Position numbers and translations under genes: made by a program. Shown piece after piece: positions 6,283 through 18,739 of a stretch of 64,000 bases of DNA. The first letter of the stretch is position 1. Every line of letters starts with the position of its first letter. The DNA comes from Dehalococcoidia bacterium (GTDB taxonomy: Bacteria; Chloroflexota; Dehalococcoidia; Lucifugimonadales; Lucifugimonadaceae). The DNA is taken from contig DUCO01000027.1 in the NCBI GenBank assembly GCA_012959765.1, positions 1-64,000 of the forward strand. Direction: 5' to 3'. The notes under the pieces were generated by a model. It was not told where the DNA came from and searched no databases. It worked only from the letters and a program-made list of their open reading frames with translations.

Positions 6283-6524
6283 ATTTCCTGACTCCTGAGG
6301 AAGAATCTTCGGTGATTGGCTGGAGTTGGGAATAGCCTCCCTCGTGTCCCGAGCGGAGTCTTCTAAGTCGAGGGATCTGGACGTGGGGACGCACTGCGAC
6401 GTTGGTGTGCGATGTGTGCGGTGCAATGCCCTAACAACCCTTCACGCCAAAGCACCCAATGCCCCTTATGCCAATATGGACTATCATCACCGCGTGTAAC
6501 CGGTGTAGACGGGGGCTTCCTAGA

Positions 6525-8012
6525 GTGACAACTTCGAGCACTGACCTTTTCGTTGGGCGCGAGCCAGAGTTGGCCGAGCTGCGCAACGCACTAGATGACG
6601 TGCAATCCGGGCGCGGCCGCATTGTCATGCTCGTCGGCGAGCCCGGCATCGGCAAGACCCGCATCGCTGAAGCCTTCGCCGATACCGCCGATGGCGGTGG
6701 TTTCACAACTCTCTGGGGTCGATGCTCCGAACAGCGTGGCACACCACCGTACCGACCCTAGGCACAGCTGATCCGTTCCTGTATCGACCAGTTTGATATC
6801 GAGGCTGTTCGTCGTGCGCTCGGTTCGAATGCAGGTGTTATTGCCGAAGTGGTTCCAGATATCGAGGCGGTGGTTCCGGACTTAAAACCGCCAACTGCGC
6901 CGGGTGACCCAGACTCCGGACGATTTCGACTTTACGACGCCTTCGACACGTTCCTTGACGTCATCTCGCGAGAACATCCCATCGTACTGATCCTCGACGA
7001 TCTCCACTGGGCCGACGAGGCATCATTGAGGCTGCTCGAATTCGTTGTGCAGGAACAGATTGATTCTCGAATCTTACTTCCTGGCACGTATCGAGATACC
7101 GATATAACGAACGACCACTCGTTGTTCCACACACTCGGAGATCTCGCTCGAAGTCGACTCTTCAGCAGAGTTACGCTGGGTGGACTCGATGTCGAAGGTG
7201 TGAGCAAGATCATCGAGGTCCAAACGGGGGCAAATATTCAACAAGACGTCAGTGTCGCGATCCATGCCCAGTCCGAGGGCAACCCCCTGTTCGTCGGAGA
7301 AATGGCACGCTCCCTCAATCAGGAGGGTCTGCTGACGGGCGATACGTCAATCGATCTGAACTCCCTGAAGCAGAGACACCCAGAAGGCATCCGAGAAGTC
7401 GTCGGCAGGAGACTGAGCCGACTTTCAGCGTATGCAAAAGACGTGCTGACCATTGCAGCTTTCCTTGGTCGTGAATTTAGCCTCGGGCAGCTGAGTGCGA
7501 TATCGACCGAGCAATCATCCGACGAGCTTATAGAGGTCCTCGGGGAAGCCCTATCTGCCCGCCTAATCGAAGAATTACCTTCGGAGGCTGGCGGCTACCA
7601 GTTCACCCATACGCTAATTCAGCAGGCGCTCAGAGAAGAGCTATAACTGATCGACCGCGTGCGTCTTCATGCCCGAATTGCGGAAACACTTGAAGGAATC
7701 TACGGCGTAAACGCCGCTTTGCATGCACCGGAATTGGCACATCATTATTCCGAGGCCGAGGCCGTATTAGGAATCGAAAAGCTGACGCACTATTCCGTCA
7801 CCACAAGTGAAGCCGCACTCGACGAATTCGCGTTCGAATCCGCGGGAAATCACTTCTCAATGGCGCTCGGGGCGCTAAATGAAAAGGAACTGGCATCGGG
7901 CAAGTCCAACCGCGAAATTGCCGAAACGCTGTTCATCACCCAAAACACCGTCATCCGCCATGTCGCAAATATCTTCAGCAAAATCGGCGTCAGCAACCGA
8001 ACCGAGGCGGAG
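6525..8012 (+). pseudogene. Broken LuxR-family AAA-ATPase transcriptional regulator
   Basis: All pieces lie in one frame from a GTG at 6525. The N-terminus has a Walker A (GEPGIGKT) after FVGREPELAEL, and the next piece has a Walker B (LILDDLHWAD). The frame is cut by TAG at 6759-6761, where relatives carry Trp (PYRP-W), so TGG to TAG is likely, and again by TAA at 7644-7646 after ALREEL. The last piece runs from RLHARIAETLEGIY to a C-terminal LuxR helix-turn-helix (SNREIAETLFITQNTVIRH). The several hundred residues of TPR-like sensor domain normally found between them are missing: GALNEK is joined straight to ELASGKSNREIA. Two nonsense codons plus a large internal deletion make this a pseudogene. 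The intact parent would be a MalT-like one-component regulator. Confidence 0.9.
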
Positions 8013-8048
8013 TCTACGCCGAACGCCAATTCCCGGCTGGTGAAAATA

Positions 8049-8084
8049 AATAACCGGATAGCTCGTACGAACTATCCGGTTATT
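8049..8084 (-). terminator. Terminator of the E1 gene group
   Basis: A perfect 13-bp stem (AATAACCGGATAG 8049-8061 with CTATCCGGTTATT 8072-8084) around a 10-nt loop. Read on the minus strand it follows the E1 beta stop and ends in ATTTATTTTC. Confidence 0.75.
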
Positions 8085-8111
8085 AGCACAGACTTCTCAG
8101 AAACCCAGTGC

Positions 8112-9182
8112 CTACTCTCGCCCGAGCAGCTTTTTTACTGTTCCTACCACGTCGGCTGGTTGCGGCATGAACTCGATCTCCAGATCACGGCTGTACGGAA
8201 CCGGAGAGTGAGGTGAAGTAACCCGCTTTACAGGAGAATCGAGATGATCGAATGCCTTGTCAGCGATCACGGCTGCAAACTCGGAAGCCATCGAAGCACG
8301 AGGGGTGTCCTCATCGACGATCACAACGTTGTTCGTCTTTGCAACCGACTCAATCAAGATGTCTTCATCAAACGGTGAAAGCGACATCATGTCGATCACT
8401 TCCGCATCGATTCCGATCTCAGCAAGCTGATCAGCAGCCTGCTGACATACAACCGATGTGTACGACATTCCAACCAACGTAACGTCAGTTCCGCGCCGCA
8501 TGTAGCGACCCTTACCGAGCTCGATAATGTATTCCTCATCAGGAACAAATCCGGTGAGGTTGATTAGCTTCTTGTCGTTCACGAGGAACACAGGATCATC
8601 GTCACGAATTGCGGCCGCAAGCAACCCCTTAACCGAGTAAGGATCTGAAGGCACAACAACTTTCAAACCAGGAATGTGCGCCAACATCGAATAGAAACTC
8701 TCCGAGTGCTGAGCAGCGTGACCCGTACCCGCGCCAGAACGTGCAAACAGGGTCAGTGGAACCTTGGTTTGACCACCAAACATGTAGCGACTCTTGGCTG
8801 CATTTGAAAGCAGTTGGTCAAATGCCACAGTTACGAAGTCGAAGTACATCAGGTCGACAACTGGACGCATGCCAGTGAGTGCTGAACCTACCGCCGCACC
8901 GACGAATCCCGCTTCTGAAATCGGTGTGTCACGGATTCGTTCGACACCGAATTCCTGAACCAACCCCTTGGTTGCAGCGAACGGTCCGCCCCACGCATCG
9001 AGTGGCTCTTTAGTGTCCTTGTCGAATCCGCCGGAAATGTCTTCGCCCATAAGGAACACATCATCGTCTCTGTTCATTTCGGCCCGTAACGTGTCACGGA
9101 AAATATCTCGGAATCTCATTTCCGAGCCGGCGACACCCTCGTATCCGGGTCCGAGAGGGTTATTTGCTTGTGAGGTCGTCAT
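8112..9182 (-). CDS. Thiamine-dependent 2-oxo acid (pyruvate/acetoin) dehydrogenase E1 component, beta subunit
   Basis: A 356-residue transketolase-like E1 beta subunit. It carries the family blocks RFRDIFRDTL, DVFLMGEDISG, TPISEAGFVG (cofactor-facing Glu), the potassium/thiamine region around FGGQTKVPLT and the C-terminal transketolase domain with ESVAKTNNVVIVDED. Together with the alpha subunit upstream it would decarboxylate a 2-oxo acid or acetoin and acylate a lipoyl E2. No E2 or E3 gene is in the window. It follows the alpha gene by 59 bp and is closed by the terminator at 8049-8084. The N-terminus has about 20 extra residues before the conserved domain. Pyruvate and acetoin cannot be told apart here. 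Confidence 0.9.
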   Translation of the reverse strand: MTTSQANNPLGPGYEGVAGSEMRFRDIFRDTLRAEMNRDDDVFLMGEDISGGFDKDTKEPLDAWGGPFAATKGLVQEFGVERIRDTPISEAGFVGAAVGSALTGMRPVVDLMYFDFVTVAFDQLLSNAAKSRYMFGGQTKVPLTLFARSGAGTGHAAQHSESFYSMLAHIPGLKVVVPSDPYSVKGLLAAAIRDDDPVFLVNDKKLINLTGFVPDEEYIIELGKGRYMRRGTDVTLVGMSYTSVVCQQAADQLAEIGIDAEVIDMMSLSPFDEDILIESVAKTNNVVIVDEDTPRASMASEFAAVIADKAFDHLDSPVKRVTSPHSPVPYSRDLEIEFMPQPADVVGTVKKLLGRE

Positions 9183-9241: not shown

Positions 9242-10240
9242 TTATCGCAGACCCGCAATTGGATTCGAGTAGTTGACGTAAACATCGTCATACACAGTTG
9301 AAACGTCCGGCATCGGGCTGTTCAGAGCGAACTCAACGGCGTCGAGCATTTCCTGCTCAATAGCATCACGAATGCTCTTCAGCTTCTTTTCCGTCATCAA
9401 CTTCTGTTTGGTAACAGTTCGCTCAAAATGCTTAATGGAGTCTAGCTTCTTGTAATACTCTTCTTCTTCCGGCTTTCGATACTTGCTCGTATCGTCGGCG
9501 TGGAAGTGACCGTGGTATCGGTAAGTCTTCATTTCAATGAGCGTCGGCCCTTCGCCAGCACGTGCTCGGGCAATTGCTTCGCCCGCTGCATCGTAAACAG
9601 CGAACACGTCCATGCCATCAACCACGACACCGGGCATTCCGTAACCCTCGGCTCGTGACGCGATATCTTCAGCAGAAACTGCGTACCAGGATGGAGTAGC
9701 TTCGGCGTAGCCATTGTTCTCGCAAGCAAAAATTACTGGAAGCTTCCAGACAGATGCGAGGTTCATTGATTCGTGGAGCACACCCTGCGAAGAAGCACCA
9801 TCGCCGAAGAACGAAACTCCAACTGACTCGTTTTCGATGCCCTTGAGCTTTGCGGTCAACGCTGCACCAACCGCGAGCGGAATTGAAGCCCCAACAATGC
9901 CGTTCGCTCCGAGCATCCCTTTCGAGAAGTCGGATATGTGCATCGATCCGCCCTTACCACCGCACTGACCTGTCGCCTTGCCGAAAACCTCAGCCATCAT
10001 CTTGTCGGTTTCGAGACCCTTAGAGATGCAGTGACCGTGTCCACGGTGAGTTGAGCCGATCCAGTCTTTATCGGTGAGATGCGCACAGATTCCGGTGGGA
10101 GGCGCTTCCTGCCCGTCCGATGTGTGTGCCACACCCATCGAGTTTCCCTTCAGGGTCTGTTCGAGCATCGTCTCCTCGAAGCGGCGGATTCGATACATCG
10201 TGGTGTAAATCCACTCCAGCTTCTTTTTGGAGATATCCAT
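9242..10240 (-). CDS. Thiamine-dependent 2-oxo acid (pyruvate/acetoin) dehydrogenase E1 component, alpha subunit
   Basis: A 332-residue E1 alpha subunit with the thiamine diphosphate motif starting at GDGASSQG and ending at ENNGY, the early block RRFEETML, and the phosphorylation-loop region with YRYHGHFHADD. It forms a heterotetramer with the beta subunit encoded 59 bp downstream. The ATG is preceded by GGAGGCACTTAAAG, a strong though rather distant ribosome binding site. The gene starts 168 bp after the TrpB2-like gene on the same strand, so all three may be co-transcribed. Confidence 0.9.
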   Translation of the reverse strand: MDISKKKLEWIYTTMYRIRRFEETMLEQTLKGNSMGVAHTSDGQEAPPTGICAHLTDKDWIGSTHRGHGHCISKGLETDKMMAEVFGKATGQCGGKGGSMHISDFSKGMLGANGIVGASIPLAVGAALTAKLKGIENESVGVSFFGDGASSQGVLHESMNLASVWKLPVIFACENNGYAEATPSWYAVSAEDIASRAEGYGMPGVVVDGMDVFAVYDAAGEAIARARAGEGPTLIEMKTYRYHGHFHADDTSKYRKPEEEEYYKKLDSIKHFERTVTKQKLMTEKKLKSIRDAIEQEMLDAVEFALNSPMPDVSTVYDDVYVNYSNPIAGLR

Positions 10241-10408: not shown

Positions 10409-11773
10409 TCAGCCTCGACCGATAAATCGGCCCAGCGAAACCTTAAGAGAGGCTTCTTCAGGTTTCTCATCGTGCATCACGCCGCCGAGCAGTGTGTCGT
10501 AAGGCGACGACTCTGTACTGACAGCCGGAGTGACGGTAAAAAGAATCGTGTCGTCGGCTCCTGTTTCCTTGCACCGCAGTGCCTGCTCAATAACTTCTTT
10601 CACCGTGTACATGGCGTGAGGTGAAAGCACGATGCCTTCAGAGCGGGTGAATATAAGCCCGGCACTGTACGACTCGATCTGCCCATGGGCGATGGCTTCG
10701 ATCAGTTTTTCTTTGAACATGGCAGAAACAATCGGGGCTACGCCGTGGTATCGCATGGCTCCGGCCAGCACGCCGGGAGGCGAGTATTCACGGCCCAACG
10801 TGTACATCGGAACCTGCGGCATCAGCCCCGCAGCGTCGGCCGACTCCTCGGTATATACACCACGAGTAAGACTCGGTGTCGATGATTCCTCAACCGCCAC
10901 GAAGCGTGTATTCCGACCCTGAATGCGAGCCGGAACAAACGGCGCAATTAGACCGCCAAAGTGAGACCCTGCGCCGATAGAACCAATCACATGATCGGGA
11001 GCTTCGTCGACCGCGGCGAGCTGTCGTTGCGCTTCGAGCCCAACGATTGTCTGGTGGATTAGCGTGTTGCCCATCAGAGTAGGAATCGCAAACTTCACAT
11101 CGGGGTCAACGGTCGCTTCTTCATATGCCTCGGCGAGAGCAGTGGCGATCGAGCCCGAAGCTGAGCCCCCTTTTTTCAACTGGAACTTTCCGACACGCGT
11201 ATTTTCCGACGGACTCGCCTGCACATCGACGCCCCAAACCCGACCATATGCATCGCCCCAGGCATGCTCCGAATCGGGTTTGCGCACGCTGTAGATTCTG
11301 CTTTTCAGTCCAAACAATGCCGTAGCGTGACCCATAGCGCTGATCCACACCCCGCCTGCCCCACCGCTTACGATCCCCTCGGCTCCGGCCTTCTTCGTGT
11401 AAAACGCCTGCGGTATCGCAGTGTTCGATTCGTACGACCCGCTCGGGCTTCCGCCTTCAACCTTGTAAAACAGTTTTGCTGGTGTGCCTAATTCTTTTTC
11501 CAGTGCCGTAGCCCTGAACATGGGCGTTGGTCGCCACTGCTGGTACGCCTCTCGAACCTCTTTGGGAATCTTGAAAGTACGACTCCGGGCGTTGAGTTCC
11601 TGCTCAATGATTTCACGAGGGAGCAACGGAGCCAGTTCGCGAGCAGTGATCGGATAGCCCGAAGGCGACATCATCGGTGGCACTCGGAACGGTAGATCGG
11701 CCTCTACGTTGTACCAGCGAGACGGCATTTCTCGAGGATTCAGCGTAATTCGATTTCCTGTAACTGTTGCCAT
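10409..11773 (-). CDS. TrpB2-like protein lacking the PLP lysine (probable non-PLP pseudoenzyme)
   Basis: A 454-residue protein that follows the TrpB2 form of tryptophan synthase beta from end to end: RPTPMFRATALEKELGTPAK, KVEGGSPSG, LHxx-type IHQTIVGLEA, IGSIGAGSHFGG, PSLTRGVYTEE, MRYHGVAPIVS, FTRSEGIV and ALRCKETG. The residues that bind and use PLP are changed: family GSHKPNTA is GSYESNTA here (Y114, E115, so the Schiff-base Lys is Glu), family ETGAGQWG is SGGAGGVW (catalytic Glu lost), and the C-terminal PAPE and SGHG blocks are also gone. The reading frame is intact, so this is selected divergence rather than decay. It cannot be expected to make tryptophan. The gene precedes the two E1 genes on the same strand. 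The true function is unknown. Confidence 0.8.
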   Translation of the reverse strand: MATVTGNRITLNPREMPSRWYNVEADLPFRVPPMMSPSGYPITARELAPLLPREIIEQELNARSRTFKIPKEVREAYQQWRPTPMFRATALEKELGTPAKLFYKVEGGSPSGSYESNTAIPQAFYTKKAGAEGIVSGGAGGVWISAMGHATALFGLKSRIYSVRKPDSEHAWGDAYGRVWGVDVQASPSENTRVGKFQLKKGGSASGSIATALAEAYEEATVDPDVKFAIPTLMGNTLIHQTIVGLEAQRQLAAVDEAPDHVIGSIGAGSHFGGLIAPFVPARIQGRNTRFVAVEESSTPSLTRGVYTEESADAAGLMPQVPMYTLGREYSPPGVLAGAMRYHGVAPIVSAMFKEKLIEAIAHGQIESYSAGLIFTRSEGIVLSPHAMYTVKEVIEQALRCKETGADDTILFTVTPAVSTESSPYDTLLGGVMHDEKPEEASLKVSLGRFIGRG

Positions 11774-12085: not shown

Positions 12086-14014
12086 ATGAATCGTCGAGTT
12101 ATTAACACCTCGAAACTCGGAATCCTGGTTCTAGCAATCGCAATGACTGCCCTCGTCATTACGGCCTGCAGCGGCGATGGCGACGAGGATGACATCACGA
12201 CCCCGATTCCTACCGGTCAACAGGGGGACACCGGCAAGCAAGGCTCTGCTGGATCGACAGGGCTTCAGGGATTCCCGGGGCCGGCTGGTCCCGAAGGTGA
12301 TAGAGGTCCTGCTGGTGCAACCGGTACAACCGGTACAGCCGGTGCCGACGGTGCCGACGGTGCCGACGGTGCCGACGGTGCCGACGGCAAATCAGGCATT
12401 CTCACGATTGGACCGGGTCTTACGACGGAGGGTTCGATCGAAGGTGATGTCGCCTTTATCGATTTTGCAGGATCGGGCGAAGCCGACACCGTTGCCAGAA
12501 GTGACCACGACCACGATTCCGACTACTACACAGATCTAGAACTCTCATCAGGGAACGCTGACGTGGCGTGGAGTTCTCTTACAGGCGTGCCCGGTGATTT
12601 AAGTTCAGGCGGTGCAGCGGCATCGGTCGATTGGGACAACATTCAGAATCGCCCAGCGGGGCTGGACGATGGCGATGACGGGCTAACTTCAGTCGAATGG
12701 AACGAGATAGAGAATCGCCCAGGCGAACTGAACACCACTCTCGGCGGGATGACCTGCGCATCGAATGAAATACCGATTTTCAACAGCTCGACTTGGGTAT
12801 GTGGCGATGCTGGACCATCGGTTGGCGACTATGCAATATCGAGCCAGTCTTGCGGACCGGGACTTGTTGCTACGGGTGTCGATGGAACCGGAAATCTCGT
12901 TTGCACAACGCTTACAACGAGCGACACAGTACCGTTCCAGCGAGGCAAACACCTGATCACAACGCTTGCGATAGGGCCGGGTGAGGCAGGGCTTTGGAAC
13001 TCGGTGACTATTGGTGACGACGGTCTGCCCGTTATTGCGTACGAAGCGGATGAATCTCTGTATCTGGCGCAATGTGACGATGTCGCCTGCACTTCTATAA
13101 CCCCGTCGCTCGTCGAAGCAACTGGCACCGGCGGTCTTTACGCATCAGTGGTTATCGGCACCGACGGATTGCCTTTGATCGCCTACCGCGAATCGCTGAA
13201 TGCAAACATGAAAATTGCCCACTGCCAGACACCTGGCTGCGCAACGAGTTCGACAACGATTATCGAAAGCTCAGGCGATGTCGGATCATATGCTTCGATA
13301 GCTATCGGCACCGACGGGCTCGGAATTGTCAGCTACTACGACGCGACAAACAGCAATCTAAAAGTTGCTCATTGCAACAACACCGCGTGTACGTCGGCTG
13401 ATCTGGTCACCGTTGATAGTGCTGGTAACGTTGGCCAGCACACATCGATTACGATTGGCAGCGATGGCTTCCCACTGATCAGTTACTACGATTTCGGTGA
13501 AGCTTCCCTGAAAGTTGCCCACTGTTCAACTATTACCTGCTCTGTGAGCACGGTGGAACTGGTCGACGCTCCGGGCGATGTTGGCAGGAGTACTTCGATC
13601 ATTATTGGGATCGATGGGAAAGGGCTGATTAGCTACTTCAACGTAACGAGTAACGACTTGAAGATGGCTCATTGCTCGAACGTGTCGTGTTCATCTTCGA
13701 CCACAGCTTCAGCAGTGACGAGTGGCGGTGTTGGCAACTGGAACTCGCTGACTCTTGGAATCGATGGGCGAGCGATCATTAGCTACTACGATTCGTTCAA
13801 CGGTTCGCTCGAAGTAGCTCATTGCGATGACATTGCGTGTACATCTGCAACCGGGGTAGACGTTGATACCGCCGGCCATGTTGGCCAGCACAGTTCGATA
13901 ACAATCGGTGCCGACGGCCTGCCGCTGGTTATCTATCACGATGTAACTTCTCGCAACCTCAAAGCAGTTCACTGTTCGAACGCTAGGTGCATGCCGAACG
14001 TCAGGAACAGGTAA
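12086..14014 (+). CDS. Lipoprotein with collagen-like stalk and seven Cys-paired repeats
   Basis: A 642-residue exported protein. The signal peptide ends in a lipobox (VITAC, Cys about residue 28). Residues about 45-105 are twenty uninterrupted Gly-X-Y triplets, as in bacterial collagen-like stalks, the last ones repeated GAD. Next comes a linker with two WxxIxNRP motifs (WDNIQNRP, WNEIENRP), as found in phage tail-fibre-like and surface proteins. The C-terminal half (about 295-640) holds seven copies of a 46-48-residue repeat, consensus S-I-x-I-G-x-D-G-L-P-L-I-S-Y-Y-D then LKVAHC-N4-C. Seven repeats suggest a seven-bladed propeller, with a disulphide in each repeat from the CX4C pair. This would be a surface-exposed adhesin-like protein. 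It is monocistronic, and I know no named family that fits the whole. Confidence 0.85.
   Translation: MNRRVINTSKLGILVLAIAMTALVITACSGDGDEDDITTPIPTGQQGDTGKQGSAGSTGLQGFPGPAGPEGDRGPAGATGTTGTAGADGADGADGADGADGKSGILTIGPGLTTEGSIEGDVAFIDFAGSGEADTVARSDHDHDSDYYTDLELSSGNADVAWSSLTGVPGDLSSGGAAASVDWDNIQNRPAGLDDGDDGLTSVEWNEIENRPGELNTTLGGMTCASNEIPIFNSSTWVCGDAGPSVGDYAISSQSCGPGLVATGVDGTGNLVCTTLTTSDTVPFQRGKHLITTLAIGPGEAGLWNSVTIGDDGLPVIAYEADESLYLAQCDDVACTSITPSLVEATGTGGLYASVVIGTDGLPLIAYRESLNANMKIAHCQTPGCATSSTTIIESSGDVGSYASIAIGTDGLGIVSYYDATNSNLKVAHCNNTACTSADLVTVDSAGNVGQHTSITIGSDGFPLISYYDFGEASLKVAHCSTITCSVSTVELVDAPGDVGRSTSIIIGIDGKGLISYFNVTSNDLKMAHCSNVSCSSSTTASAVTSGGVGNWNSLTLGIDGRAIISYYDSFNGSLEVAHCDDIACTSATGVDVDTAGHVGQHSSITIGADGLPLVIYHDVTSRNLKAVHCSNARCMPNVRNR
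12341..12388 (+). repeat. 9-bp tandem repeat (GGTGCCGAC)x5
   Basis: Five direct 9-bp units encode five consecutive GAD collagen triplets. Such runs are prone to slippage, each step adding or removing one triplet without a frameshift. Confidence 0.9.
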
Positions 14015-14033
14015 ATAAAGGTGAGCGCTTAGT

Positions 14034-14548
14034 TTGCCGATTTCCATGAGGGCTTTCGAACGCGCCGATCTCGATATTGCCGTTGCGGCATGGCAACCGA
14101 TTTTTGCTTCGTCCAAAGAAATCGTCGGCGAAGAGCTGTTCGAATTTATTCACCCCGACCCTGATGCCAACAAACGCGCCCGTGTAACAGGTGCGTGCCA
14201 TGACGAAGACCCGAGACAGGTTTGAGTAGCCGAACTAAACAGCAACGAAAAACACGCGACCAAGGGCGAAAGCCCGCCCGGAGCTAACGTTGTCGACTTT
14301 ATAATCGTCCACATGTATCACGATAGGAAAGTGGCCGAAATCGGCAACAACGCAGTGGCTCCTGCATTCCATGGCCGGGGCGTGCGCAGATGTACGCCTT
14401 TGTTCTTGAGCGTATGAGAGAGGCGGGAATGAAGGCGGCGATTGTCAGCACCGGTGCTGACAACGCGCACGCACCCGCGAAACGAGCGTATGAAAAGGTC
14501 GGGTTTTCAGGTCCGGTGCCATCAGTCGAATATCACATCAAGCTGTAA
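14034..14548 (+). pseudogene. Broken GNAT-family N-acetyltransferase
   Basis: Translated pieces join into one GNAT protein of about 170 residues. The N-terminal part reads MRAFERADLDIAV up to DEDPRQV, then an in-frame TGA at 14223-14225, continuing in frame with VAELNSNEK. The acetyl-CoA loop region AVAPAFHGRGV is at about 14355-14385. Just after it a frameshift (about 14385) is needed to continue with MYAFVLERMREAGMK and the C-terminal AYEKVGFSG, ending YHIKL at 14548. One nonsense codon and one indel disable the gene. The first ATG that fits is 14046. Confidence 0.8.
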
Positions 14549-14567
14549 TACCGTCACCCTCTACCAC

Positions 14568-14595
14568 TGTCATCCTGATGAAAATCAGGATCCAT
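14568..14595. repeat. TGTCATCCTGA palindromic repeat, perfect copy
   Basis: ATCCTGAT (14572-14579), loop GAAA, ATCAGGAT (14584-14591): an 8-bp stem on a GNRA-type tetraloop, identical in its core to the copy at 57406-57425. It lies right after the GNAT pseudogene. The remainder of the gap to 14766 shows no gene. Confidence 0.75.
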
Positions 14596-14766
14596 ACCAA
14601 ACCACCAACAACCTCACACCCCCAACCATCACAGCAAAGGCAAGAAAAAGTGCCACTGGCACCCACCTGGCACTGACCTGAGAAGATAGTTGTAGGCGAA
14701 TTCAGCGTTTTGCCCGATGTGCCACCGCTGGGATATTTTTTGGCGAGTCGAAGAACAGGGAGATAT

Positions 14767-15129
14767 ATGGATCAGTTGATGATCGATATCGAAGATAACG
14801 AAAACAGCGGCTATTTTCCTATTCAGGTATTCGAGACGCAGAGTGAGCCTCGAACAACCGCGGTCATCACCGTTCCCAGCATTCCGAGCAGCGATGAACC
14901 TCACGATGTTGTCGGTTGGTGTTCTGACGGCGGTGGCGGGCCGTGTGAAGTGACTGCCGTGGTGGTCGGAGATTCGGGATCTGGGCAGGCATTATTGATT
15001 CATGGAGGGGACTATGGAGTGCGGTTACGGCCTTCAGAATCGGACTCTCCATGGTCGCTTGAGGCTGGTGACCAGATTGGCGAGCCGTACTTATTGCTAC
15101 AGACATCCATAAAACTAACTTTTTCGTAA
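14767..15129 (+). CDS. Hypothetical protein, 120 residues
   Basis: I do not recognise the family. The ATG at 14767 is chosen over an upstream in-frame codon at 14710 because GGGAGAT lies just before it. The protein is acidic, has no signal peptide or membrane segment, and contains a Gly-rich turn with a Cys pair (WCSDGGGGPCEV) and many predicted beta-strand stretches (TAVITVPS, LLLQTS). It lies alone between the GNAT pseudogene and the ACIII operon. Confidence 0.55.
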   Translation: MDQLMIDIEDNENSGYFPIQVFETQSEPRTTAVITVPSIPSSDEPHDVVGWCSDGGGGPCEVTAVVVGDSGSGQALLIHGGDYGVRLRPSESDSPWSLEAGDQIGEPYLLLQTSIKLTFS

Positions 15130-15174
15130 TAAACTTGTCGCGTTTTTACCTCGCCCTAATTGCCCGCCGAACTG

Positions 15175-15202
15175 TTGACACTGAAAAATGCCTCGTGATA
15201 GT
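15175..15202 (+). promoter_or_regulatory. Candidate sigma70-type promoter of the ACIII operon
   Basis: TTGACA (15175-15180), a 16-nt spacer, then GATAGT (15197-15202) as a weak -10. It lies about 100 bp before the first gene of the run. A small hairpin AGGGC/GCCCT follows downstream in the presumed leader. Confidence 0.4.
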
Positions 15203-15299
15203 TTTCACTTGCGCTACTTTTGAAGGGCGGCTGCCCTGCGTTCGCGTTCGCGTTTAGTCCTTCGTGTTTTTATCACTTCGGGAGCTTAGTCAACAGGGT

Positions 15300-15590
15300 A
15301 TGGATCCTAAACCGCTAACCACGGCCGAATGGGCTGAAGTAGGCATGGCACTTAAGTTCCTGTGGCTTGCGCTGGGCTTTGCCCTTGTAGCAGGGCCGTC
15401 GCTCCTTACTGCTCACGCAATTATCCCTTCGATTGTCGACACCAAAACTGTCGCAGCCAAGTGGTCAAAATTACGCGCACCCCTCTACGTAGTCGGCATC
15501 ATTTGCGTCATCGGTATTTTTGCATCGTTCTACATGGCGTCAGAAAACACCGATTTCTTGCACAGAATTTATTCACGGTGGTGGCAGTAA
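15300..15590 (+). CDS. Small two-helix membrane protein at the head of the ACIII operon
   Basis: A 96-residue protein with two clear hydrophobic segments (about residues 17-40 and 58-77) separated by a short polar loop, ending FLHRIYSRWWQ. The ATG at 15300 is preferred to a GTG at 15264 because it has AGGG shortly upstream and gives a sensible soluble N-terminus. It is followed 63 bp later by actA. It could be an accessory transmembrane subunit of ACIII, comparable to the small membrane subunits of characterised complexes, but I see no homology to prove that. Confidence 0.6.
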   Translation: MDPKPLTTAEWAEVGMALKFLWLALGFALVAGPSLLTAHAIIPSIVDTKTVAAKWSKLRAPLYVVGIICVIGIFASFYMASENTDFLHRIYSRWWQ

Positions 15591-15653
15591 GCACTGCCCC
15601 ATCCTTACTCACGTTAGTAGCTAGTTTCGGCTAGCAAGGACTGGAAAGAACGC

Positions 15654-16358
15654 TTGGCGTCGGAAAACGATAACTCGAACTCCAAATCGTCATCTTTACC
15701 CAAGATGCTCGTGTCGGTATTGGCTATTGGTGGCCTCGGCGTAATGGCGGTCATGGGTGTAGTAGCAGCGTTCATCATTACGGGTTGGATCGGTCAGCCG
15801 GTCCCCGTCTTGGGATTCGAACAGACCTTCGACCAGCCGATCGACTTCCCCCACACAGTTCACGCCTCACTGCTTCCCCTCGATCGAGTCGCAGCCGATG
15901 GAGAGAAGATGGACGGTCTCGGGCTCGACTGCACCTTCTGCCACCGAACCGTAACCACTCAGGCGAACGCTGGAATTCCGCCGGTGGGTTTCTGCGCAAC
16001 CTGTCATCAGGTGATCGGTGCCGCAGACAACGTCCAGATCAACCTTCTTCGTGACGCTGCCGATATCATCGGCGACGACGGCACCGAGCCGGTCAACTGG
16101 AAGCGAGTGCACCGCCTACCCGACCATGTTCGATTCGTTCACGAACCACATATTCGATATCTCACTCAAAACCCGTCTGAAGTCACAGGCACCACAGACG
16201 GAGTTACTCAAGGCGCTGCCGGCGTTTGCTCAACCTGCCACGGAAACGTCGCAGCTATGCAGCAGGTCGAGCAGGTTGAATCTCTCAAAATGGGCCAGTG
16301 TGTCGATTGCCACCGTGACAACGGTGCACCGACCGACTGTGTAGCCTGCCACCACTAA
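15654..16358 (+). CDS. actA: Alternative complex III subunit ActA, pentaheme cytochrome c
   Basis: A 234-residue protein with one N-terminal membrane anchor (about residues 18-42) and five CXXCH haem-binding motifs in the periplasmic part: CTFCH, CATCH, CSTCH, CVDCH and CVACH. This matches ActA of ACIII, which carries electrons from the Fe-S subunit toward the monoheme ActE. The TTG at 15654 is taken as start because GGAAAG lies eight bases upstream; an ATG is available at 15702 but lacks such a site. It starts the ordered run actA-B1-B2-(NrfD)-C-D-E. Confidence 0.9.
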   Translation: MASENDNSNSKSSSLPKMLVSVLAIGGLGVMAVMGVVAAFIITGWIGQPVPVLGFEQTFDQPIDFPHTVHASLLPLDRVAADGEKMDGLGLDCTFCHRTVTTQANAGIPPVGFCATCHQVIGAADNVQINLLRDAADIIGDDGTEPVNWKRVHRLPDHVRFVHEPHIRYLTQNPSEVTGTTDGVTQGAAGVCSTCHGNVAAMQQVEQVESLKMGQCVDCHRDNGAPTDCVACHH

Positions 16359-16438
16359 GGAATACCGGAACTTAATTACACGGGTTTGAACCCAGTCCCA
16401 GCAATAGAAACTGCGACAACAGGAACAACACTGACCAG

Positions 16439-18739
16439 ATGAAGCTAAATCGACGAGAATTCCTAGCGCTTACCGGTAAGACGGCTGCAGGAGCTGTGAT
16501 ATTCGCAGCCTGTGGACTACCTGAGCGCGAGCTAATTGTTCAGAGTCCTGTAGACCTCCCGGAAGATCTGGTTCGAGGTGAAGACGCCTGGTACGCCACT
16601 TCGATGGGCGATTTCACAAACGGCGATGGCGTGCTGGTTCGAGTCATGCAGGGACGTGCTAAGAAAATCGAAGGCAACCCCGACCACCCGGTAAACCGCG
16701 GCAAGGCGACGGCTCGATACGATGCCCCCTTGCAGCTGCTCTACCACCCCGACCGTATTCCGGAACCACAAATCCGCTACTCGAAGTCTGGAAACCTGGT
16801 AGGCATTAGCTGGGATCAGGCCGACACTCGCTTCCAGGAAGCGCTGAAGAACGCCAATGGTTCGCTGACTGTTGTCACGAACCCGCTTCGAGGTCATCTC
16901 GGTAGCGTGGCTAGCAAATTTGCCGCTCAATATTCTGGCAAGCACATGGCGTTCGATTCGACCGAGCAGGGCGTGCTTCATGGCGCTGTGAAATCGGTTT
17001 TCGGCCACGACCAGCTCCCAACATTTGATATTGCAAACGCACAGACGGTGCTTTCGTTTGGTGCCGACTGGCTCGGCACGTGGGGTTCACCCGCACAGTT
17101 TGGCGTGAAGTACGGTGAGTTCCGAAGTCAAAGCGACCGTGGATACTTCATTCACGCAGAACCTCGTATGTCGCTAACTGCCGCAGCTGCCGATCTCTGG
17201 CTTGCTCCTCGACCCGGTACCGAAGGCGACCTCGCACTGGGTATCGCTCGGGTTATCACCACCACTGCAGGTCTTGCCGGCCAAGACAACATCGATGCGT
17301 TCAACGCAGCCGTACCTGGCGGCCTAAATGACTACGGCATTGTTGATGTTGCAAACCGCACTGGCGTATCGATCGACCGCATCGAGAAGGCTGCACGGCA
17401 CTTCGCCGAGCACACACCTTCAGTTGCGTTCGGTGGCGGTTCAGCCGGTGCTCACACCAACGGTAGTTTCAACCTCGGTGCGATCTACGCACTGAACCTG
17501 CTGGTCGGCGCTGTCGATGCCAGAGGCGGTATTACAGCCAACCCATCTTCAGCACTCAAAGATATTCCCGCTTCAGCAACCGGTGCTTCGTTTGAAGCAT
17601 GGGAAGCTGAACTCGCACAGTGGCGTGCCGGCAACGTTGAAACCGTCATCATTCGTGGTGCCAATCTCGTTTACGGAATGCCTAACTCGGTAAACGTCAG
17701 GGAAGCGCTTTCGCATGTACCTAACGTTATTGCTTTCGGCACGGTTCTTGACGACACGATGGACCTCGCTGACCTCGTACTTCCCGAGCAGATGTTCCTC
17801 GAAGCATGGGGCACCGACATTCCAGAGCCAGGACCTGGCTATCAGGTTGTTGGCACACAGCAGCCGGTTGTCGGCCCAACTATTTCTCGGGAGGAAGCTG
17901 GCCTCATCAGCGATGCTCGCGGATTCGGCGACACCCTTCTGGCGATGTCAGACGGATCGTACGGTTCCAGCATGGAACGATTGGTCAAAGGCGCGCTTTC
18001 CGATCTACACAGCACGGGCAGTGGTTCGGTTTCTGCATCAACTGCAACTCTGTTTACCAACGGCGCACTCCAACGCGGCGGCTGGTGGGATACGAGCAAG
18101 GGTGGATCGAGCAAAGTCGGTAAAATTGGCGGCTCAGCTGCAACCCCAGAGTTCTCCGCAACCGATTCTCTGGGTAAAGGCGACGATTTCACTCTGATAC
18201 CGTTCCAGTCGAACTCTCTGGGTGATGGTCGATTAGCCGCTACCCCATGGGCACAGCAGACGCCCGATCCTATTTCATCGGCTTCATGGTCGACCTGGGC
18301 AGAGATCAATAGCGAACAGGCTAAAGAACTCGGAATCAAAGAAGGCGATGTCCTTCTGATTCGTTCAACCTCAGGTGAGATCGAAGTTCTCGCTTACCCG
18401 CACCCCGGCGTTCGACCCGACGTGATCGGTATCCCGATCGGTCAGGGTCACCACGAAAGTGGTCGATACGCCGAAGATCGCGGGTCAAATGTCCTTTCTA
18501 TTCTCGTCGACGAGAAAGATACTGAAACCGGCGCGCTGGCATGGGCTGCAACTCGAGTTCGAGTACAGCGTGCTGGTCGCCGAGTGAAGGTTCCGAAGTT
18601 CGAAGGTAACGTTGAGGCCCGACAAGTCGAGCCAGGTGTTCCGATTCTGGTTGTTGGTGTTGGTGAAACTGCCCATGATGCGCAAGAGGCGAACCACCAC
18701 CTGTATCAGCAGCAATTCCTTGGCGGAGACGATGAGTAA
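16439..18739 (+). CDS. actB1: Alternative complex III subunit ActB1 (molybdopterin-oxidoreductase-like, cofactor-free)
   Basis: A 766-residue protein beginning with a twin-arginine signal (NRREFLALTG) whose end, IFAAC, is also a plausible lipobox, so it is exported folded and may be lipid-anchored. It has the domains of molybdopterin oxidoreductases, including the C-terminal dinucleotide-binding domain (NSEQAKELGIKEGDVLLIRS). Apart from the Cys of the signal it contains no cysteine, so it can bind neither the usual N-terminal 4Fe-4S cluster nor a Cys-ligated metal. This agrees with ActB1, known to be an inactive molybdoenzyme scaffold. In well-studied complexes B1 and B2 are generally fused; here B2 is a separate ORF 42 bp downstream. 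Confidence 0.88.
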   Translation: MKLNRREFLALTGKTAAGAVIFAACGLPERELIVQSPVDLPEDLVRGEDAWYATSMGDFTNGDGVLVRVMQGRAKKIEGNPDHPVNRGKATARYDAPLQLLYHPDRIPEPQIRYSKSGNLVGISWDQADTRFQEALKNANGSLTVVTNPLRGHLGSVASKFAAQYSGKHMAFDSTEQGVLHGAVKSVFGHDQLPTFDIANAQTVLSFGADWLGTWGSPAQFGVKYGEFRSQSDRGYFIHAEPRMSLTAAAADLWLAPRPGTEGDLALGIARVITTTAGLAGQDNIDAFNAAVPGGLNDYGIVDVANRTGVSIDRIEKAARHFAEHTPSVAFGGGSAGAHTNGSFNLGAIYALNLLVGAVDARGGITANPSSALKDIPASATGASFEAWEAELAQWRAGNVETVIIRGANLVYGMPNSVNVREALSHVPNVIAFGTVLDDTMDLADLVLPEQMFLEAWGTDIPEPGPGYQVVGTQQPVVGPTISREEAGLISDARGFGDTLLAMSDGSYGSSMERLVKGALSDLHSTGSGSVSASTATLFTNGALQRGGWWDTSKGGSSKVGKIGGSAATPEFSATDSLGKGDDFTLIPFQSNSLGDGRLAATPWAQQTPDPISSASWSTWAEINSEQAKELGIKEGDVLLIRSTSGEIEVLAYPHPGVRPDVIGIPIGQGHHESGRYAEDRGSNVLSILVDEKDTETGALAWAATRVRVQRAGRRVKVPKFEGNVEARQVEPGVPILVVGVGETAHDAQEANHHLYQQQFLGGDDE

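Follow-up and report, generated by a model that had tools for sequence, protein, structure and literature searches.

The window analysed here, a stretch of 64,000 nucleotides of Dehalococcoidia DNA, carries on its minus strand a gene for a TrpB2 homologue without the PLP-binding lysine. This protein will be called TrpB*. It is followed by the two genes of a PDH-type E1 pair and a terminator-like hairpin:

10409 to 11773, minus strand: Lys-less TrpB2 homologue (TrpB*), 454 amino acids, open frame (NF009057, 450.9 bits; 6hul_B, E 2.5e-83)
9242 to 10240, minus strand: E1 alpha, PDH-type ThDP enzyme, downstream of TrpB*, in conserved order (PF00676, 305.5 bits)
8112 to 9182, minus strand: E1 beta, third gene of the run (Transket_pyr and Transketolase_C; NF006667, 322.4 bits)
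8049 to 8084, minus strand: terminator-like hairpin of 16 pairs after E1 beta (consensus scan only)

The reading frame of TrpB* runs uninterrupted from the ATG at 11773 to the stop at 10409. It is thus whole, as claimed in a preliminary description of this DNA, which had named no strand; the frame is that of the minus strand, and frame 1 of the plus strand holds several stops across the same positions. The likeness to TrpB2 over the entire length, claimed there as well, was borne out by the NF009057 score, which lies above the NCBIfam cut-off (366 bits), and by the alignments with solved structures, of which 6hul_B (query residues 16-428), 4qys_B (8-414) and 6hte_B (8-413) are the nearest. For TIGR01415 (trpB_rel) the protein stays below the cut-off (390.8 vs 518.85 bits). 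The AlphaFold model has a pLDDT of 90.2 and a pTM of 0.91 and is weak at residues 340-342, a stretch that includes the retained Arg341. When Foldseek was run with this model, TrpB2 structures came out on top (best 6hul_B, TMq 0.84, TMt 0.92). The predicted structure of L133, a Lys-less member from outside the genus, is confident as well.

Active-site residues and the pocket

In tryptophan synthase, the ETGAGQ loop binds the substrate carboxylate, a Gly-Ser loop binds the PLP phosphate and the Ser of SGHG contacts the PLP ring. H81, K82 and S371 are termed strictly conserved in TrpB1 and TrpB2 in PMC1854888. The corresponding and neighbouring positions of TrpB* are as follows (all by alignment):

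11429 to 11431, minus strand: Glu115, codon GAA (read 11431-11429), in the column of the Schiff-base lysine
11432 to 11434, minus strand: codon of Tyr114, which is His in the Lys-bearing TrpB2 rows
11351 to 11368, minus strand: SGGAGG, residues 136-141, where canonical rows have TETGAG; the catalytic Glu is Gly137
10952 to 10975, minus strand: GAGSHFGG, residues 267-274, the retained phosphate-type loop, with G267, G269, S270 and G274 kept in Lys-less and Lys-bearing rows
10751 to 10753, minus strand: Arg341 of RYHG, common to Lys-less and Lys-bearing rows
10607 to 10609, minus strand: Tyr389, a Tyr shared by all 19 Lys-less rows, against His in all 32 Lys-bearing ones
10517 to 10534, minus strand: VTPAVS, residues 414-419, at the position of the canonical (S/C)GHG block

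The alignment agrees with what had been read from the single sequence: the Schiff-base Lys is replaced by Glu (GSYE), the catalytic Glu of ETGAGQ is gone, with Gly137 in its column, TPAVS stands where SGHG is expected near the C-terminus, and the Gly-Ser loop is intact. Judged by these residues, the label that comes with NF009057, a TrpB-like PLP-dependent enzyme, is very unlikely to apply to TrpB*.

When 19 Lys-less rows were compared with 32 Lys-bearing rows, K115E/Q (one Q), S232T, L340M and H389Y were found to be shared by all 19. A140, Q142, R173, P296, H336, G416 and H417 are wholly or mostly lost from the Lys-less rows. An acid, Glu or Asp, stands at position 142 in 11 of the 19, and Val or Leu in the g1 and g12 rows. 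His114 is retained in several members, and Tyr114 is the residue of the window genus. G267, G269, S270, G274, R341, Y342, H343 and G344 are unchanged in both groups, and W20, N22, Q58 and E59 are conserved and common to TrpB* and TrpB2. A substitute pocket lysine was sought in the 19 rows and none occurs clade-wide; the nearest change is at column 354, which is basic (14 Arg, 2 Lys). The loss of the catalytic Glu proves nothing by itself, because two Lys-bearing copies on Streptomyces plasmids have lost it too.

Distribution, single origin and selection

A TrpB2-like match was obtained in 35 of 100 relatives, the own genome counted (E 1e-20). In total, reading of the lysine column revealed a Lys-less copy in 33 genomes (Glu in 32, Gln in one): 16 from the SAR202 genus of the window, six from a second genus of the family and 11 from elsewhere in the class. 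Every one of the 33 also lacks the ETGAGQ Glu at column 137. Within the window genus, TrpB* is present in 16 of 19 genomes, with 83-91% identity to the window copy and Glu in 16 of 16; it was searched for in the other three (G001, G003, G005) and not found at E 1e-20. The six copies of the second genus show 60-63% identity, one of them (L065) being a fragment at a contig end. More distant copies with Glu occur in G084 (45% identity) and in G031 and G021 (42-43%).

The 30 loci read from a profile search of 393 genomes of the class comprise six known Lys-less, eight new Lys-less and 16 Lys-bearing ones (L142 and L151 duplicate L023 and L028). The new Lys-less loci L133-L139 have Glu and L140 has Gln (GSHQ). 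As the reading covered the stronger class matches, the class has at least the Lys-less copies counted here. Beyond the class, the 29 best matches besides the window's own among 400 genomes of the phylum all carry Lys. Three phylum-wide hits to the pattern GSYExNTA (L095-L097) were rejected as TrpB relatives, their frames of 10-108 codons pointing to chance. Plasmid relatives were found in 13 records, of which five were fetched and four aligned, with the lysine in four of four. The two Streptomyces plasmid genes mentioned above (L158, 5747-7401; L160, 3628-5350) combine the PLP Lys with GTGAGQ in place of ETGAGQ and adjoin acyl carrier protein genes. In the own genome, a quick motif scan, too crude to rely on, detected the lysine motif in only two of nine other PALP proteins.

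In a tree built after removal of the pocket columns, all Lys-less rows fall on one side of a single branch with support 100/99, with one change. This tree comprises 51 rows (19 Lys-less, 32 Lys) without TSB or TrpB1 sequences, and its midpoint root serves for drawing only. The tree excludes 12 rows of the window genus and two rows from the second genus, the fragment L065 being one of these two. Also omitted are the interrupted paralogues L059 and L060, together with roughly a dozen near-copies that carry Lys.

None of the Lys-less copies contains an inner stop; one ends at a contig end. Compared with the window, omega of TrpB* is 0.022-0.038 in L032, L033, L036 and L038 (four of seven loci tested), values that are rough because dS is close to saturation throughout; in L037, L043 and L066 dS is saturated and omega could not be computed. 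For E1 alpha and E1 beta, omega is 0.019-0.064 where computable. Two members of the genus have an interrupted canonical TrpB2 paralogue: in the complete genome G013 it is split across two frames (L060) and in G008 it holds an in-frame TAA (L059). The TrpB* genes of these two genomes are whole.

The preliminary description had proposed to look for a clade in which Glu is conserved and the frames are intact. One was found (32 Glu, one Gln), with a single origin and strong purifying selection where measurable. The opposite outcome considered there, in which the Glu variant would be a lone case amid close relatives able to use PLP, was not observed; 32 genomes share it. Its proposal of a new role, not decay, is supported by the clade, the open frames and the low omega. 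We read the Lys-less TrpB2 proteins, on the strength of their sequences, as an old subfamily that has lost PLP-aldimine chemistry. Since a group of related bacteria keeps the Lys change, TrpB* very probably has another job. One event of lysine loss followed by long conservation would make the subfamily a clean case of the conversion of a cofactor enzyme.

Two gene neighbourhoods

Within the window genus, 15 loci were fetched in addition to the window. E1 alpha comes after TrpB* in the same orientation in 14 of them, L041 ending before this point, and E1 beta comes next in all 13 of these 14 that reach that far. The second genus shows E1 alpha after TrpB* in L066, L067, L068, L069 and L128, L065 being cut within TrpB*. 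The hairpin after E1 beta was one of seven found in the region, where 4.2 are expected from shuffles; the stems of the remaining six comprise 5-7 pairs. In SAR202, TrpB* is probably co-made with the PDH-type E1 pair.

Several variations on this arrangement were seen. L035 (7366-8103) and L036 (7372-8097) have an extra membrane-like ORF of ~240 amino acids between TrpB* and E1 alpha, and in L066 of the second genus acetolactate-synthase-like and transketolase-like ThDP genes (12409-16781) come after the E1 pair. In the window, an AAA/LuxR-type regulator on the plus strand (6459-8216), seemingly broken into three ORFs, adjoins the intact TrpB*-E1 run; AAA_16 was matched in the middle ORF and the LuxR part was recognised by eye. 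Six E1 alpha genes score over the cut-off in the own genome, which also has three E2 genes, with no E2 on the window's contig.

E1 beta was found in 68 of 76 genomes of the family, mostly in genomes where no Lys-less TrpB2 was found. In the window genus, E1 beta and TrpB* occur together in 16 of 19 genomes. At the cut-offs applied, both are missing from G001 and G003. The remaining genome, G005, has E1 beta but no TrpB*: its E1 pair is present, and the site in front of it is empty, with no recognisable remnant of TrpB*. Because E1 beta is widespread without TrpB* and this site is empty, E1 does not need TrpB*. Thirteen E1 loci were read from genomes that lack TrpB* in this position, and an adjacent TrpB* match appeared in none. 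A functional tie between TrpB* and E1 is weakened by the wide spread of E1 beta, by these 13 loci and by the empty site of G005, but the two genes do occur together in most genomes of the window genus. The E1 loci of other genera were also inspected by eye for a different gene at the position of TrpB*, and none was consistent.

A second neighbourhood appears outside the two SAR202 genera. There, a gene for MscS, OtsA, OtsB, CorA or glucan phosphorylase lies within 7 kb of seven of 11 Lys-less loci (MscS at five, OtsA at three, OtsB at three, CorA at two, glucan phosphorylase at two) and of none of 25 Lys-bearing control loci, 20 from the class and five from an earlier search. Ten of the neighbouring proteins were checked by Pfam, including nine that belong to the kinds listed; the remaining matches were made by phmmer, with queries from six of the seven positive loci. 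With queries from other loci only, the counts are still seven of 11 (MscS five of 11) vs none of 25, with Fisher p values of 4e-5 and 0.0012 that flatter the association, because the gene kinds were chosen after viewing the loci, contig ends cut some of them and two of the 11 belong to one genus. The loci near MscS are L192, L193, L194, L198 and L070, and trehalose synthesis genes are found in three of these five. In the two SAR202 genera, 17 loci were examined and none has neighbours of the MscS/trehalose type, so the two contexts do not indicate one pathway. Read from gene order, the MscS/trehalose neighbourhood is a lead, not a result.

Possible roles of TrpB*

We favour a repurposed ligand-binding protein over a new enzyme and rate as slightly better than even the chance that TrpB* is such a binder, in which PLP-aldimine chemistry was abandoned once and which was strongly selected thereafter. 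In this old TrpB2 subfamily of the Dehalococcoidia, Lys has been replaced by Glu (in one case Gln), the catalytic Glu has been lost, and the TGAGQ loop and the SGHG block are altered; the phosphate loop and RYHG persist, as does the fold in the predicted model. Since the phosphate loop and RYHG are kept and Lys, ETGAGQ and SGHG are changed, the pocket may bind, non-covalently, a phosphate-bearing ligand other than an amino acid. TrpB* would then be a metabolite-binding or partner protein of carbon or osmotic metabolism and not a tryptophan synthase.

A real enzyme with new chemistry is a genuine, if lesser, possibility. Glu115, the tyrosines and the acid at position 142 could form a cofactor-free or metal-dependent site for a phosphorylated substrate. 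Such a site is consistent with the clade-wide conservation of Glu115 and Tyr389 at the former active site, with a selection about equal to that on the neighbouring E1 genes and with the metabolic genes among many of the neighbours. However, given Val or Leu at 142 in the g1 and g12 rows, the one Gln115 and several His114, no complete new catalytic set is invariant.

A bolder form of the favoured ligand binder, which seems rather unlikely, would make a TrpB2 with reversed charge at the cofactor lysine a new kind of PLP-fold protein, a non-covalent receptor for PMP or a sugar phosphate, for instance from the trehalose pathway, coupling osmotic-stress genes or the ThDP E1 to the metabolic state. 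It is also quite unlikely that vitamin B6 is still used, in the form of PMP or non-covalent PLP. The retained phosphate loop would suit this, and a carboxylate opposite an amine is chemically sensible if Glu115 pairs with the 4'-amine of PMP, but SGHG has changed along with the lysine. YggS/PLP-BP is described as a non-catalytic B6-binding protein of PLP homeostasis; it belongs to a separate family (COG0325) and is likened to TrpB* by description only.

It is highly improbable that TrpB* is a partner-type pseudoenzyme that activates TrpA for indole release. The plant TSB-like protein, a pseudoenzyme derived from TSB, works in this way (PMC12727527), and TrpA is present in the own genome. The gene lies on a different contig (C29), however, and a TrpA match adjoins none of 28 Lys-less loci vs three of 25 Lys-bearing loci; moreover, the non-operon TrpB2_o is the lowest-ranked for TrpA binding in PMC1854888. 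Decay or a sequencing error has a practically negligible chance, as nothing was found in its favour and it is contradicted by a Lys-less clade of 33 genomes with no inner stops and strong purifying selection where measurable.

TrpB* resembles TrpB2 and TrpB-like PLP enzymes (NF009057; 4qys, 6hte, 6hul) in its full-length alignment, predicted fold, phosphate loop and RYHG, and differs from them in that the PLP Lys, the catalytic Glu, the TGAGQ loop and SGHG are replaced. For O-phosphoserine, a role as TrpB2 substrate is reported (PMC8756737 or PMC11917138). An earlier description of a Lys-less TrpB2 was not encountered among the open-access matches listed, a scope outside which most subscription journals lie. 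The nearest precedent for TrpB* is plant TSB-like, a beta-subunit pseudoenzyme without tryptophan-forming activity that lacks the catalytic Glu and serves as an activator of the alpha subunit (PMC12727527). Both have a small residue in place of this Glu, Gly137 in TrpB* and Ala in most TSB-like proteins. TSB-like arose from plant TSB and partners TSA, and the two key residues named for it in PMC12727527 do not include the PLP lysine; in TrpB* the lysine itself is lost, and the nearest relatives found are TrpB2 proteins.

Ca. Lucifugimonas marina JH1073, a cultivated SAR202 strain (PMC10444878), carries one of the Lys-less copies in its complete genome (CP046147, from which locus L036 was taken). 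With TrpB* present in a cultivated strain, the question becomes accessible to work on the protein itself and perhaps on cells of a lineage that is widespread in the ocean.
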